Shown piece by piece: positions 16,453 to 57,966 of a stretch of 64,000 bases of DNA (positions within the stretch are counted from its first letter, which is position 1; every line of letters starts with the position of its first letter). A program made the translations under genes and the position numbers. The notes beneath the pieces are model-generated. The model was given only the letters and a program-made list of their open reading frames with translations, searched no databases and was not told the DNA's origin. This stretch comes from Aquimarina brevivitae. GTDB lineage: Bacteria; Bacteroidota; Bacteroidia; Flavobacteriales; Flavobacteriaceae. The DNA is taken from assembly GCF_004216895.1 (NCBI RefSeq), contig NZ_SGXE01000002.1, positions 496,001-560,000 of the forward strand, in the 5' to 3' direction.

Positions 16453-16992
16453 ATGAAAAAGTTAGTAATTATTTTTATGATGGCACTTGTACCTTATTTA
16501 TCGGTAGCACAAGGAGCATTTGACAAATATGAAAACATGAAGGATGTTTCATCAGTAGTCATCACCAGTAAAATGTTTAAGTTATTAAGCAAAATCGATG
16601 TAGAGTCAAAAGACGCAGAAGTACAAGAGTATATGAATCTTGTCGAAAAGATAAACAACATTAAGGTTTTTGCTACCTCTAGTGCTGATGTAGGAAAGAA
16701 GATGAAATCGGATGTAGATAAATACCTTAATAGCTCTTCATTAGAAGAATTGATGCGAGTGAATAGCGATGGGAAAAATGTGAAATTTTATTCCAAACCA
16801 GGTAAAGATGAAGATCACGTTAGCGAATTGTTTATGTTCATTGATGGTGTAAAAGAAGCAGGCGATGAAGGACCAAATACTGTGGTACTTACTTTAGTTG
16901 GCGATATTGATTTAAAACAAATTTCTAAGTTGACCGATAAAATGAACATCCCTGGAGGAGAAGAGCTTAAAAAAGTAGAAAAGAAAAATTAA
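16453..16992 (+). CDS. DUF4252 family exported protein
   Basis: The protein has 179 residues with a signal peptide (MKKLVIIFMMALVPYLSVAQ). The DUF4252 pattern is clear: VSSVVITSKMFKLLSKID, then EYMNLVEKINNIKVFATSS, a Ser-rich turn, MRVNSDGKNVKFYSKP, and a final beta strand LTLVGDIDLKQISKL. Members are common in Bacteroidota beside ECF sigma genes and have no known enzymatic activity. The same family recurs in the next gene, whose leader is a lipobox rather than a signal peptidase I type, so one copy is soluble periplasmic and the other lipid-anchored. Confidence 0.85.
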   Translation: MKKLVIIFMMALVPYLSVAQGAFDKYENMKDVSSVVITSKMFKLLSKIDVESKDAEVQEYMNLVEKINNIKVFATSSADVGKKMKSDVDKYLNSSSLEELMRVNSDGKNVKFYSKPGKDEDHVSELFMFIDGVKEAGDEGPNTVVLTLVGDIDLKQISKLTDKMNIPGGEELKKVEKKN

Positions 16993-52896: not shown

Positions 52897-54084
52897 ATGC
52901 AAGTTTTAGTTCTAAACTCAGGAAGTTCATCTATAAAATTTCAATTGTTTACCATGCCTCAGGAAGCAGTTATTTGCTCTGGAATGGTAGAAAGAATTGG
53001 CATGGAAAATGCTAAAATCTCTTATGAAGCAAAAGCACAAAAGTTTGAAGAAGTTGTTGCAATTAAAGATCATAAGGATGGATTACAGCGTATTGCTCAA
53101 TATCTTTTAGATGATGAAAGAGGGGTCATTTCATCTGCTGCAGATATCCAAGTGGTAGGCCACCGAGTGGTTCACGGAGGAAGTACTTTTACGGATACAG
53201 TAATTGTAAATGATAAGGTAAAAGACAAAATAGCACAATTAGCGTCACTTGCTCCACTTCATAATCCTGCAAATTTGCAAGGAATCGTGGTTGCGGAAAC
53301 TATTTTTGATAAGGCCACACAAGTAGCTGTGTTTGATACCGCTTTTCATCAAACTATTCCTTTAAAAGCTTATAAATATGCGATTCCCAATAAATTTTTG
53401 GAGGAACATAAGATTAGAAAATACGGCTTTCATGGCACCAGCCATAAATATGTGTCCGAAAAGGCCATTGCATATATAAAGAAACCTCAATCCAAAATAA
53501 TAACCATTCATTTGGGTAACGGATGTAGTATGACTGCTATCAAGGATGGTAAGAGTATTGATCATTCCTTGGGTTTTGCCCCAATGAATGGTTTAATAAT
53601 GGGTACCAGAAGTGGCGATATTGATCCAGCTATAATTTTTCATTTAGTTAATAGTCTTGGGTATACTATAGATCAAGTAAATGATGTATTGCAAAAGGAA
53701 AGCGGAATGTTAGGCCTAACAGGTTATAGTGATTTAAGAGATATTGAAGCAGCTGCAGCTAAAGGAGAGCAATATGCTATAGAAGCTTTGCAAATGAACG
53801 CCTATCGCATCAAAAAATTTATAGGAGCTTATGCTGCAATTATGAATGGTCTAGATGCTATTGTTTTTACCGCCGGTATTGGTGAAAATTCTGATGTGAT
53901 TAGAAAGTTAGTATGTAATGATATGGGATTTTTGGGTATTCACTTGGATGATGAATTAAATACAATTAGATCTAAAGAAATCAGGGATATTTCGGCATCC
54001 AATGCTAAAGTCAAGGTGTTAGTCATTCCGACTAATGAAGAGCTTGAGATAGCAAAGCAATCTTTTCAACTTTGTACTTCATAA
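52897..54084 (+). CDS. ackA: Acetate kinase
   Basis: The enzyme interconverts acetyl phosphate plus ADP with acetate plus ATP. The protein has 395 residues. Signatures are VLVLNSGSSSIKFQL at the N-terminus, VVGHRVVHGGSTF, FDTAFHQTIP, the YGFHGTSHKYV motif, IIHLGNGCS-type phosphate loop (TIHLGNGCSMTAI), MGTRSGDIDPAI and FTAGIGENSDVIR. All catalytic motifs are intact. It is co-transcribed with pta, and a terminator follows the stop at once. Confidence 0.97.
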   Translation: MQVLVLNSGSSSIKFQLFTMPQEAVICSGMVERIGMENAKISYEAKAQKFEEVVAIKDHKDGLQRIAQYLLDDERGVISSAADIQVVGHRVVHGGSTFTDTVIVNDKVKDKIAQLASLAPLHNPANLQGIVVAETIFDKATQVAVFDTAFHQTIPLKAYKYAIPNKFLEEHKIRKYGFHGTSHKYVSEKAIAYIKKPQSKIITIHLGNGCSMTAIKDGKSIDHSLGFAPMNGLIMGTRSGDIDPAIIFHLVNSLGYTIDQVNDVLQKESGMLGLTGYSDLRDIEAAAAKGEQYAIEALQMNAYRIKKFIGAYAAIMNGLDAIVFTAGIGENSDVIRKLVCNDMGFLGIHLDDELNTIRSKEIRDISASNAKVKVLVIPTNEELEIAKQSFQLCTS

Positions 54085-54086
54085 AA

Positions 54087-54116
54087 AAAAGGCAAATCCT
54101 TTTGAATTTGCCTTTT
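54087..54116 (+). terminator. Rho-independent terminator after ackA
   Basis: AAAAGGCAAAT, an 8-base loop and ATTTGCCTTTT form an 11-bp stem directly after the ackA stop. It may also end the convergent small-peptide transcript. Confidence 0.82.
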
Positions 54117-54136: not shown

Positions 54137-54331
54137 TTAGTAAAGTATGCATCTTCCATAACCCCATCTAGAATCGCAATATCCTGGCTCGCAGAAACTA
54201 CCACCAGGAAAGCTGATTTGGCAACCTCTACCAGATGTACAGCAAGAGATGCTTCCCCAAGCTCCTTTAATGCTTTTTAATTCTCCTCTACTTAGCGTTT
54301 GCACACCTTTTAAATCTAAAATTTTTTTCAT
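54137..54331 (-). CDS. Orphan Cys-rich bacteriocin-like peptide precursor
   Basis: The peptide has 64 residues. The leader MKKILDLKGVQTLSRGELKS followed by IKGA matches the double-glycine-type leaders of Bacteroidota bacteriocin-like peptides (a KKIL.LKGVQ.LS..E.K.I.G pattern), here with GA in place of GG. The ~38-residue core starts WGSISCC and contains six Cys and many Gly, which suggests three disulfides or modified thiols. No C39 peptidase/ABC exporter, modification enzyme or immunity gene is nearby, so export and processing must rely on genes elsewhere, if it is active. The function could be antimicrobial or signalling. Confidence 0.7.
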   Translation of the reverse strand: MKKILDLKGVQTLSRGELKSIKGAWGSISCCTSGRGCQISFPGGSFCEPGYCDSRWGYGRCILY

Positions 54332-54482
54332 TGTGTAATTATTTTAAGTTAGGATTTAAATATAGCGTAAATTACCTTAATTGTTTTGTGGTAAAAACGC
54401 AATTCTTATACGGTTTGGCAATTACCTGGCAAGGGTAAATGTGTACAAAAATTGATATTTTAGTAAAAACATAAATTAATTC

Positions 54483-55211
54483 ATGGAAGAGAAAACGGTT
54501 TCTGCAGCGATATCCTATCGAAGGTCAATACGTGTTTATAAAGATGAAAAAGTAGATCAAGAAATAGTAAAGCAGTGTATTAAAAATGCTGTTTTGGCAC
54601 CAACAAGTAGTAATTTACAGCTTTGGGAATTTTATCATATTACAGATGTAAACATTTTAAATAAAATGAAACGTGCTTGCCTTGATCAGAATGCAGCAAA
54701 AACTGCAGATCAATTAGTGGTTGTAGTGACTCGAAAAGATCTTTGGAAAAAAAGAAGAAACGCAAATATTAATTTTCTTAAAAATCATTACGGTAGTAAA
54801 CCAGAGGATCAATACTCCAGAAGAGAAAAGTTAGCCCTTAATTATTACAAAAAGTTAATACCGGTTGTGTATTTCGATTTATTGGGCATATTGGGTTGGA
54901 TGAAGTATGCCTTTTTTAATATCGTTGGTTTATTTAGACCAGTTTATCGACAAGTAAGGCATAGTGACCTTAGGGTAGTTGCTCATAAAAGCGCTGGTTT
55001 AGCAGCAGAAAATTTTATGATTAGTATGGCTGCATTAGGTTATGATACTTGTCCTATGGAAGGTAGTGACACATTAAGAGTAAAGAGAATTCTTGGTTTG
55101 CCATATGGAGCTGAGATTAATATGGTCATTGGATGTGGTATTAGAGATGAAAAGGGAGTCTATGGCCCTCAATTTAGAGTTCCTTTTGAAGAAGTGTATC
55201 ACAAAAAATAG
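54483..55211 (+). CDS. Nitroreductase family FMN protein
   Basis: The protein has 242 residues. The nitroreductase FMN-binding start AISYRRSIRVYKDEKVDQE is followed by KNAVLAPTSSNLQLWEFYHI, and later by AAENFMISMAALGYDTCPME and a C-terminal NMVIGCGIRDEKGVYGPQ. A hydrophobic insert (about 120-150, VYFDLLGILGWMKYAFFNIVG) is larger than usual and may contact membrane lipid. The family reduces nitro compounds, quinones or enones with NAD(P)H; the substrate is not evident. Confidence 0.87.
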   Translation: MEEKTVSAAISYRRSIRVYKDEKVDQEIVKQCIKNAVLAPTSSNLQLWEFYHITDVNILNKMKRACLDQNAAKTADQLVVVVTRKDLWKKRRNANINFLKNHYGSKPEDQYSRREKLALNYYKKLIPVVYFDLLGILGWMKYAFFNIVGLFRPVYRQVRHSDLRVVAHKSAGLAAENFMISMAALGYDTCPMEGSDTLRVKRILGLPYGAEINMVIGCGIRDEKGVYGPQFRVPFEEVYHKK

Positions 55212-55398: not shown

Positions 55399-57966
55399 AT
55401 GAAAAGATTAGTCATCGTGCCATTATTACTGTTTTTTATAATGGCCTATGCACAGGTACCCCCGTATTACAATGATGTTAATTTATCACTTACTGGACAA
55501 GCTTTATTCAACGAATTAGGAGATAAAGTATCTACATCGCATACTACTTTCTTAACCTATACCCCTGGGGTTTGGGAAGCACTCAAACAGTCAGATATTA
55601 ATCCGGCAAATCAAAGTAAAGTTCTTTTATTGTATGGCTTCTCAGACAATGATGGAAATTCCACTACGGACAGATCTAGAGCTATTGATAATAATGGTGG
55701 TGGAGTAACGCAATGGAATAGAGAACACACCTATCCTAAATCGCTTGGACAACCTAACCTTGGTACCGAGGGGGCGGGTGCCGATGCGCATCATTTACGT
55801 CCTTGTGATGTACAACGTAATTCGGATAGAAGTAATCGCAAATTTGCAGCTGGCAACGGCAATTCTGGTATCACTCCTCAAGGGCATTGGTATCCTGGAG
55901 ACGAATGGAAAGGGGATGTTGCCAGAATGATGATGTATATGTATATCCGGTATGGTAGTCAATGTTTGCCCAGTAATGTTGGAGTAGGTAATTCGTTATC
56001 CACAGATGCTAATATGATTGATCTTTTTTTACAATGGAATGTTGAGGATCCTGTTTCTGATTTTGAACTTCAACGAAATCCTGTTTTAGAGTCACTACAG
56101 GGAAATAGAAATCCTTTTATTGATAATCCAGCGTTTGCCACGCAAATATGGGGCGGACCACAGGCAGAAGATCGGTTCGGAACCAGTGATCCTGATACCG
56201 AAGCTCCAAGTATACCTGTGGGTTTGGTAGCAACTGATATTACTACTAATACAGTTACTCTAAGCTGGAGCCCCGCTCAGGATAATGTTGGAGTAACCCA
56301 ATATTCAGTATTTCAGAATTCGACTTTAGTTACAACCGTAGGATCTAATTCTGCAACCATTAGTGGATTAAGTGCTGCCACAAATTATACATTTGCGGTC
56401 AATGCAAGGGATACCGCAGGCAATACCTCCCCTTTAAGTACAGCGTTAGCTGTAACTACGAATTCAGCTTCAGGTTCAGGTACCATTTCAGAGCTCATTA
56501 TTTCGGAATATGTTGAGGGTTCATCATACAACAAAGCACTAGAAATAGCCAATTTTACAGGGCAATCAGTAGATTTATCACAATATGTCATACGCAAGCA
56601 GACTAATGGTTCTGGTAGTTGGGGTGGGGATTTATATCTTTCGGGTATGTTGGCACATGGTGCAGCTTATGTGATTGCAAATAGTAACGCCAGTAGTGCC
56701 TTACAAAGCAGAGCAAATCTGTTGGACAATTCAGGTTCGCTAAATTTTAATGGTAATGATCCCATTGGATTATTCAAAGGCAACACATTGATTGATATTG
56801 TTGGAAATTATAATGGAGGAACAGCTATTTTTGGAAAAGATCAAACGCTAAGAAGAAAGTCAAATATACAAGAGCCTTCTTCATCTTATCAATCAGGTCA
56901 ATGGGAGGTTTTCCCTCAAAATACATTAGTAGGGTTAGGAGATCATCAATTTGATGGCGTAGGCTCGGATACCGTTCCGCCAACAGCGCCAGCTAATGTT
57001 GTGGCAAGTCAAGTTACCCAAAATTCGTGTGTACTTTCCTGGGATCCATCCAACGATAATGTAGGGGTCTTTGCTTATGAAATCTATGCGAATAACACCT
57101 ATTTGGGAGCAACGACAAACCGCTCCTTTACCATTTCAGATTTAAATCCAGCTACAACCTATAATTTCATCCTACTTGCCTATGATGCTGCTAATAACGT
57201 ATCATCAGCTTCAGGTGTTTCCGTAACTACCTTGGCAACCTCATTAACCTACTGTGCTAGTCAAGGAAATAATACCAATTATGAATATATTGATTACGTT
57301 AGCATTTCTGGTATAGATAATGTAACAGGACCTAGCACGGGGTATGCAAATTATACTAGTCAAGTAGCAAATCTTAATTACGGTACCAATACTATAGTTA
57401 TTAGTGCAGGTTTTACTAGTAGTGCTTATACCGAATTTTGGTCTGTTTGGATTGATTTTAATCAAAACGGTACTTTCGAAGCCGCTGAGCGTGTGGTTAA
57501 TGGTTCTTCGTCCAGTGCAGAACAGTTATATGCTAATTTTACGGTTCCTACAACTGCAGTGGCAGGCAATACAAGAATGCGCGTTAGTATGAAATGGAAT
57601 AGCGAACCCTCTCCTTGTGAAACCTTTGGGTATGGAGAAGTTGAAGATTACACAGTTTCCATAGGTAATGGAAGAAGTAATTCGGTGCCATCCAATGCGC
57701 TTAAGTTACCGTTAGAAAATGAAAAACCTATATTTGACTTAGTGCTGCACCCTAATCCGGTAACAAGTACCTTGTCTATTGTGTGTAAGGATCGGAGGGC
57801 AATGGATTTTAAATTAACAGATAGTAGTGGTAAAGTTGTCAAGTCATTCACAAGTAGAGATCAATCTGAAATTCACTTAAATCTATCTAATTTGGCTTCT
57901 GGATTGTATATACTTTCTGCGTTTGATGGTAATCGCAAGATTTTTAAAAAATTAATTATTGAATAA
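55399..57966 (+). CDS. Secreted endonuclease I with Fn3, lamin-tail, GEVED and T9SS sorting domains
   Basis: The protein has 855 residues with a signal peptide ending at MAYAQ. Residues ~20-260 form an endonuclease I (EndA/Vvn-type) domain with the NREHTYPKSLGQ and ADAHHLRPCDVQRNSDRSN active-site stretches. Then come a fibronectin type III domain (~270-355), a lamin-tail domain (~360-510, ELIISEYVEGSSYNKALEIA), a second Fn3 (~525-615), a GEVED domain (~635-770, FWSVWIDFNQNGTFEAAERV, GYGEVEDYTVSI) and a type A sorting tail (~785-855, LVLHPNPVTSTLSIV). It is predicted to degrade extracellular DNA at or beyond the cell surface, giving nucleotides or phosphate. Confidence 0.93.
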   Translation: MKRLVIVPLLLFFIMAYAQVPPYYNDVNLSLTGQALFNELGDKVSTSHTTFLTYTPGVWEALKQSDINPANQSKVLLLYGFSDNDGNSTTDRSRAIDNNGGGVTQWNREHTYPKSLGQPNLGTEGAGADAHHLRPCDVQRNSDRSNRKFAAGNGNSGITPQGHWYPGDEWKGDVARMMMYMYIRYGSQCLPSNVGVGNSLSTDANMIDLFLQWNVEDPVSDFELQRNPVLESLQGNRNPFIDNPAFATQIWGGPQAEDRFGTSDPDTEAPSIPVGLVATDITTNTVTLSWSPAQDNVGVTQYSVFQNSTLVTTVGSNSATISGLSAATNYTFAVNARDTAGNTSPLSTALAVTTNSASGSGTISELIISEYVEGSSYNKALEIANFTGQSVDLSQYVIRKQTNGSGSWGGDLYLSGMLAHGAAYVIANSNASSALQSRANLLDNSGSLNFNGNDPIGLFKGNTLIDIVGNYNGGTAIFGKDQTLRRKSNIQEPSSSYQSGQWEVFPQNTLVGLGDHQFDGVGSDTVPPTAPANVVASQVTQNSCVLSWDPSNDNVGVFAYEIYANNTYLGATTNRSFTISDLNPATTYNFILLAYDAANNVSSASGVSVTTLATSLTYCASQGNNTNYEYIDYVSISGIDNVTGPSTGYANYTSQVANLNYGTNTIVISAGFTSSAYTEFWSVWIDFNQNGTFEAAERVVNGSSSSAEQLYANFTVPTTAVAGNTRMRVSMKWNSEPSPCETFGYGEVEDYTVSIGNGRSNSVPSNALKLPLENEKPIFDLVLHPNPVTSTLSIVCKDRRAMDFKLTDSSGKVVKSFTSRDQSEIHLNLSNLASGLYILSAFDGNRKIFKKLIIE

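Follow-up and report, generated by a model that had tools for sequence, protein, structure and literature searches.

Introduction

C39 leader peptides, their exporters and models of Bacteroidota leaders are already known. The closest described systems are the double-glycine peptides of the class II bacteriocin and microcin type, in which a leader of recognisable pattern ending at a GG, GA or GS site precedes a short core, and a C39-ABC exporter with an HlyD-type partner is encoded in the genome. Gly-Gly, Gly-Ala and Gly-Ser are listed as sites of the C39 domain in the available part of PMC6363468, which gives Val-4, Leu-7 and Leu-12 as recognition residues and cites a ComA consensus of L-12, E-8 and L-7. 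Small secreted proteins with GG or GA leaders, EbfG1-4, are also served by a C39 exporter, PteB, in Synechococcus elongatus, where, according to the part of PMC4997328 available, the genes lie beside the exporter and have a role in biofilms. Similar leaders occur in the NCBIfam families NF047798 (leader_Chryseo, "bacteriocin-like protein") and NF047792 (CCPGW), and leaders of the GG type are found as well in the graspetide and rSAM precursors of Bacteroidota (PF14406, TIGR04149).

The locus reported here lies in a window of 64,000 nucleotides (the whole stretch of Aquimarina brevivitae DNA that was analysed). It shares the leader pattern, the type of cut site, the short core and the presence of a C39-ABC exporter with HlyD-type partner in the genome with the class II bacteriocins and microcins, but it has neither an adjacent exporter nor an evident immunity gene, its six-Cys core is covered by no Pfam or NCBIfam model over cut-off, and it belongs to a syntenic tandem family. 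In contrast to EbfG1-4, to which no sequence relation is claimed, it does not lie beside an exporter. What is new is a six-Cys family that is syntenic and expanded in tandem, and whose probable partners in export and oxidative folding are conserved in the genus without being linked to it; among the papers listed by literature searches, none dealt with this family in its title or abstract, and "Aquimarina" with "cysteine-rich peptide" gave no paper. Precursor mining beside the machinery would pass over such a peptide, as its probable exporter and disulfide enzyme are encoded elsewhere.

Results and Discussion

The peptide gene and its neighbourhood

The features of the locus, in window coordinates, are the following.

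52897..54084, plus strand: ackA (acetate kinase), conserved converging neighbour, not part of the peptide system
54087..54116, minus strand: terminator-like hairpin where the peptide gene and ackA converge (1 found, 0.3 expected)
54137..54331, minus strand: precursor peptide gene, 64 codons plus stop, supported by the ORF, homologues and purifying selection
54140..54259, minus strand: predicted mature core, codons 25-64, Cys pattern CC-x5-C-x9-C-x4-C-x8-C
54260..54331, minus strand: leader, codons 1-24, ending ..LSRGELKSIKGA
54343..54351, minus strand: TAACTTAAA, a short way upstream of the peptide ATG; a similar element is seen by eye in many relatives
54483..55211, plus strand: nitroreductase-family gene, divergent neighbour; a related gene is present in 3 of 15 relatives
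55399..57966, plus strand: endonuclease I with T9SS tail, conserved flanking gene on the side opposite to ackA

The initial annotation had read a six-Cys peptide precursor at 54137-54331, and the ORF was confirmed: it runs on the minus strand from an ATG start and codes for a product of 64 aa with a leader ending in GA, MKKILDLKGVQTLSRGELKSIKGA, followed by the core, WGSISCCTSGRGCQISFPGGSFCEPGYCDSRWGYGRCILY. The predicted core (40 aa, ≈4.36 kDa, pI ≈7.8) has six Cys and probably holds three disulfides. The gene starts 151 bases from the start of the divergent nitroreductase-family gene and the hairpin separates it from the converging ackA, so that a separate transcription unit is the simplest reading. 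A promoter scan of the peptide gene's strand did not find a sigma-70-type site, and the word TAACTTAAA is no rarer in the window than expected by chance (3 found, 3.14 expected).

Nine proteins encoded between 46.4 and 61.5 kb were scanned, namely PheT, a thioredoxin-like protein, Pta, AckA, the nitroreductase, the T9SS-tailed endonuclease I, CorA and two without Pfam match. None of these nine is a peptide exporter, a maturase or an evident immunity protein, as had been noted from the letters of the sequence, nor is any an ATP-grasp or radical-SAM enzyme. The adjacent dedicated exporter and immunity gene that would mark a class II bacteriocin or microcin are thus absent from the nine neighbours, an absence that counts mainly for the exporter, given that immunity genes can be unrecognisable.

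The leader

Relative to the predicted cut, the leader carries L-12, E-8, L-7, I-4, G-2 and A-1. By inspection, hydrophobic residues at -12, -7 and -4 are combined with E-8, the leader ends in GA (IKGA), and a C39-ABC exporter is present in the same genome. Judged by its residues, the window leader fits the published rule (L-12/E-8/L-7/[VIL]-4 followed by GG, GA or GS). Many relatives have Q rather than L at -7, which the rule, as given in the available part of PMC6363468, does not predict.

The window peptide had no match in Pfam or with TIGR04149 and only sub-threshold matches in NCBIfam, with NF047798 over residues 13-24 (18.8 bits, cut-off 23.5) and with NF047792 (13.5 bits, cut-off 80). 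Out of 46 family members, 11 matched NF047798 at E<=0.1, five gave weak PF14406 matches (best E 0.0083) and one matched TIGR04149 (E 0.028). The window peptide itself has neither a model match nor, among the nine neighbours scanned, a modifying enzyme that would assign it to the graspetide or rSAM precursors.

A six-Cys family at a fixed site

The initial annotation had stated that a lack of homologues with this leader in related genomes would refute its reading. On the contrary, relatives at 15 loci, all titled Aquimarina and 57-78% identical to the window peptide, were retrieved when 84,980 species genomes were scanned with a pattern that detects close relatives only. The six Cys are invariant in all 16 sequences, in which CEPGxC and much of the leader are also kept. 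With relatives at 15 loci and the six Cys invariant throughout, the peptide ORF is real, far beyond chance. No match to the peptide was found in phage and plasmid collections.

In the 15 Aquimarina genomes the relatives are sited between endonuclease I and ackA-pta. Counting the window, endonuclease I flanks the peptide within the stretch read at 16/16 loci and ackA flanks it on the opposite side at 15/16, the exception (L008) being a contig that ends ≈1.4 kb past the match; an extra gene lies between peptide and ackA at four loci (L004, L005, L011, L012). The same stretch carries two to five leader peptides in tandem, nearly all of them with six Cys, in 14 of the 15 relatives. The term "orphan" thus holds for the A. 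brevivitae genome, with its one copy, and fails for the family, which is tandem and syntenic in relatives, nor is the peptide solitary by nature, as had been suggested.

By profile search (E<=0.001) the family was detected in 51 of the 66 genus genomes, with up to 26 matches per genome and a single one in the window's genome; most genomes of the genus therefore keep it, at a fixed site in those examined. In an even draw of 299 genomes from the taxonomic family, 26 matched at E<=0.01, and beyond the genus these matches were mostly weak and made via the leader. Those peptides that were read resemble the family in their leaders, which mostly end in GG, and differ from it in their cores.

The leader pattern was applied to 45 loci (the window, its 15 relatives and those genus loci that scored best, with some genomes represented twice) and yielded at least 141 peptides, 83 of them distinct. 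Six Cys are present in 82 of the 83, and the one peptide with 2 Cys was omitted from later analyses, dN/dS included. Two core layouts were recognised, one with CC first and CEPGxC, the other with C-x5-6-CC and CDxGYC. By eye, some sequences combine the first part of one layout with the last part of the other, as might result from an exchange of segments.

The initial annotation had treated GA in place of GG as an anomaly. Among the 83 distinct peptides, GA is the norm (56, against 17 with GS, 5 with GT, 2 with GG and one each with GR, GK and GE), the leader pattern itself demanding G or A at -2. Since Gly-Ala is among the C39 sites in the available part of PMC6363468, and the leader fits the recognition residues given there, GA is to be expected and is not odd.

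When the window core was compared with four same-type orthologues (L001, L002, L003, L009), pS was 0.74-0.91 and pN 0.08-0.10. The dN/dS values were 0.07, 0.05 and 0.06 in the three computable comparisons, the synonymous sites of L001 being saturated. Values of 0.05-0.07 versus orthologues point to strong purifying selection on the core itself. Summed over 139 pairs, dN/dS was 0.32 for the leader and 0.48 for the core, sums restricted to pairs whose pS is below 0.5 and drawn from orthologues and paralogues alike.

Structure prediction with AlphaFold from 46 sequences reached a pLDDT of 61 and a pTM of 0.40, with beta-strands at low confidence. In the PDB, Foldseek found nothing at E<=0.001, nor did a profile search of its sequences at E values up to 10. 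Given the weak prediction and the lack of a PDB match, no fold is claimed.

Exporters and a VKOR protein elsewhere in the genome

A remote C39 exporter had been proposed to serve the peptide, and the suggested genome search for C39 peptidase/ABC exporters was performed. It returned three intact exporters, together with a fourth protein having a weak C39-like domain.

Exporter A, contig 3, ≈163 kb: C39-ABC with HlyD-type partner
Exporter B, contig 1, 420 kb: C39-ABC, with two GG-type leader peptides at a distance of 3-7 kb and a thioredoxin-like gene next to it
Exporter C, contig 1, 784 kb: C39-ABC; a protein encoded nearby matches nitrile hydratase below threshold

By inspection, Q9, C15, H and D of the peptidase are retained in exporter A. 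In the fourth protein VKOR is fused to thioredoxin; it exceeds the cut-off of PF07884 and falls narrowly short of those of PF03412 and PF13462. With the first Cys of this fusion at residue 194, cysteine peptidase activity is ruled out for its C39-like domain. Both exporter A and VKOR are encoded away from the peptide gene.

In the cluster of exporter C (contig 1, ≈774-794 kb; L032), HlyD-like, outer-membrane-like and cyclic-nucleotide-binding-like genes were read without model search, and the nitrile-hydratase-like (sub-threshold) protein near the exporter is leader-type.

The search for further leaders, also suggested at the outset, retrieved peptides with other cores by sub-threshold leader matches and by pattern. 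They lie on contig 2 at 907.2 kb (L017:1489-1683, putative cut GS), contig 7 at 59.4 kb (L039:2440-2610, putative GG), contig 4 at 158.5 kb (L041:2500-2658, putative AG) and contig 1 at ≈424 and 428 kb (L034:13224-13436 and 16623-16796, putative GG in both). When the leader model was run on the genome, 10 matches were obtained at E<=10, all of them below cut-off, and matches likewise arose in 8 of 14 control genomes; these peptides are therefore to be taken as candidates only.

Co-distribution in the genus

At an identity of at least 80%, a cut-off chosen after the table had been seen, exporter A was found in 50/66 genus genomes (in part only in G330), that is in 49 of the 51 peptide-positive genomes and in 1 of the 15 peptide-negative ones (both 49, peptide only 2, exporter only 1, neither 14). 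The two peptide-only genomes are 55% (G320) and 78% (G336) complete, and the exporter-only genome, G356, has exporter A at 80% identity and VKOR as well, and no peptide. When the 58 genomes at least 90% complete were considered, the same four counts were 48, 0, 1 and 9. At E<=1e-100, exporter A or a relative of it (47-74% identical, or a fragment) was detected in 6/15 negatives, among them G356 with its 80% identity, and in 50/51 positives. VKOR was present in 52/66 genomes at E<=1e-50 and in 48/66 at >=41% identity, giving, in the order both, peptide only, VKOR only and neither, 50, 1, 2 and 13 by the former threshold and 47, 4, 1 and 14 by the latter.

PheT, a marker covering 64 of the 66 genomes, was used to place these counts. 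Its identity to the window was 65-69% in 13 of the 15 peptide-negative genomes (73% in G356, no match in G324) and 71-76% in the peptide-positive ones, except G336 (66%) and G320 (no match). The co-distribution is thus largely one phylogenetic split, perhaps with a few later events, and within the main clade exporter A and the peptide are both almost universal. Because of this main split and of the post hoc 80% cut-off, the Fisher P values computed for co-occurrence are not used as probabilities, as they do not count independent events, and for the same reasons the distribution supports the link between peptide and exporter A short of proof. The proposal of a remote exporter is hence borne out as far as three intact exporters are present and one of them tracks the peptide genus-wide, while its link to the peptide is supported and not proven.

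Proposed mechanism and alternatives

The leader, the exporter, the cysteines and VKOR make export and disulfides likely. The reading that we favour, with a probability of roughly 0.68, is that of a secreted disulfide mini-protein whose C39 leader is cut after GA by the remote contig-3 exporter, with VKOR perhaps helping, and which acts on other cells. A type I exporter, most likely exporter A (the genus-conserved C39-ABC and HlyD pair at ≈163 kb of contig 3), would bind the 24-residue leader through its C39 peptidase and cleave it behind Gly-Ala. The core of ≈40 residues and six Cys, freed outside the cytoplasm, would fold into a three-disulfide, probably beta-rich mini-protein, perhaps aided by the VKOR-thioredoxin protein with its N-terminal C39-like domain devoid of a catalytic cysteine. 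Among the actions that the secreted peptide might have on other cells, antagonism of the class II microcin-like or defensin-like kind is put somewhat ahead of signalling or a role in biofilms, on account of the many different cores per genome. If confirmed, this would provide a three-gene hypothesis (peptide, contig-3 exporter and VKOR) together with 82 distinct natural six-Cys precursors.

The near constancy of the core across species and the lack of an evident immunity gene allow for a signalling or biofilm role. A secreted signal or community factor within the species (e.g., in biofilm formation), rather than an antimicrobial, is accordingly a reading with a real, if minority, chance of being right. 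The great constancy of the core between orthologues and the lack of an evident immunity gene beside the peptide both agree with it, and EbfG1-4 with their C39 exporter PteB are a tested precedent, in which one leader ends in Gly-Ala according to the available part of PMC4997328. On the contrary, an expansion that reaches 26 matches in a single genome and spans many different cores looks more like a repertoire of weapons.

C39 exporters can be promiscuous, and the true exporter of the peptide might be one of the other two C39 systems, the contig-3 exporter being coincidental. Exporter B has two other leader peptides of the GG type at some 3-7 kb and a thioredoxin-like gene as its neighbour. We regard this as unlikely, as close relatives of B (>=70% identity, with more distant ones at 30-39% in other genomes) and of C (E<=1e-150) were each found in 5/66 genomes, versus 51/66 for the peptide; as universal partners both were rejected on distribution. 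With LanM relatives in 1/66 genomes, the comparison of these distributions (5, 5 and 1 of 66) with that of the peptide leaves exporter A and VKOR as the only tested partners able to serve the family genus-wide.

That the gene is a relic or a spurious ORF, no longer used in a small genome, would agree with its one copy in A. brevivitae versus several in most relatives, but reading frame, six Cys, leader and synteny are all intact and the substitutions versus orthologues are mostly synonymous, which makes this explanation very improbable.

It is scarcely credible that the peptide is the substrate of a LanM-like enzyme, i.e., a class II lanthipeptide with thioether cysteines: a LanM-type protein is indeed encoded in the genome (contig 2, 876-879 kb) and class II lanthipeptide leaders can likewise end in GG, GA or GS, but LanM relatives (E<=1e-60) occur in one genus genome versus 51 with the peptide, on which distribution the reading was rejected, the gene is neither adjacent to the peptide gene nor co-distributed with it, and the core has, against six invariant Cys, no invariant Ser or Thr and one nearly invariant Ser (S40). 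The LanM-type protein itself (DUF4135 and LANC_like; contig 2, 876291-879197, L146:8291-11197) has no obvious precursor adjoining, and its gene is perhaps a recent acquisition.

VKOR, exporter A and other leader peptides

Going back to the preferred reading, with its remote exporter and VKOR, the coordinates of the two genes were compared across the genus. In 8/66 genomes (G317, G322, G340, G346, G347, G348, G349 and G351) a VKOR paralogue lies 14-47 bases upstream of exporter A on the same strand; in the three that were read directly, a DUF6734-type gene adjoins it. This paralogue is 28-34% identical to the VKOR of the window's genome, where no exporter-adjacent paralogue was found at E<=1e-50.

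Cys-containing leader peptides were detected directly downstream of the other VKOR (not the exporter-adjacent paralogue) at 3 of the 13 VKOR loci examined, out of 52 VKOR-positive genomes, by a strict pattern run on both strands; two more loci (L131 and L136), missed by the strict pattern, have a leader peptide by a looser one. The strict pattern retrieved no leader peptide in 30 PheT control loci (160 kb) and none in 18 exporter flanks (168 kb), from which L140 (genome already counted) and L143 (exporter paralogue) were omitted. Looser patterns gave one leader peptide in L139, where the exporter is ≈4 kb away, and another close to the exporter paralogue of L143. VKOR is thus tied to leader peptides, but these are not members of the six-Cys family.

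A broader view, which we offer tentatively and consider rather doubtful, would have one highly conserved C39 exporter, which removes every leader, and VKOR-thioredoxin enzymes, which grip the same leaders with a dead C39-like domain, serve the whole six-Cys repertoire, the arrays at ackA being a fixed site where cores are made by duplication and segment exchange. The dead C39-like domain would then direct disulfide formation to the leader peptides that it grips and, if this were true, such a leader-reading domain would be a mechanistic answer to the folding of such peptides in Gram-negative bacteria.

The leader peptides read downstream of a VKOR-thioredoxin gene are at L141:9200-9394, L127:1018-1200 and 1237-1431, L133:3139-3345, L131:3231-3410 and L136:3271-3450. 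A gene of the DUF6734 type was also observed beside VKOR and a C39 exporter at L137:10438-11718, L138:9946-11229 and L142:6279-7553; the Pfam match was tested in L137, and the genes in L138 and L142 look alike.
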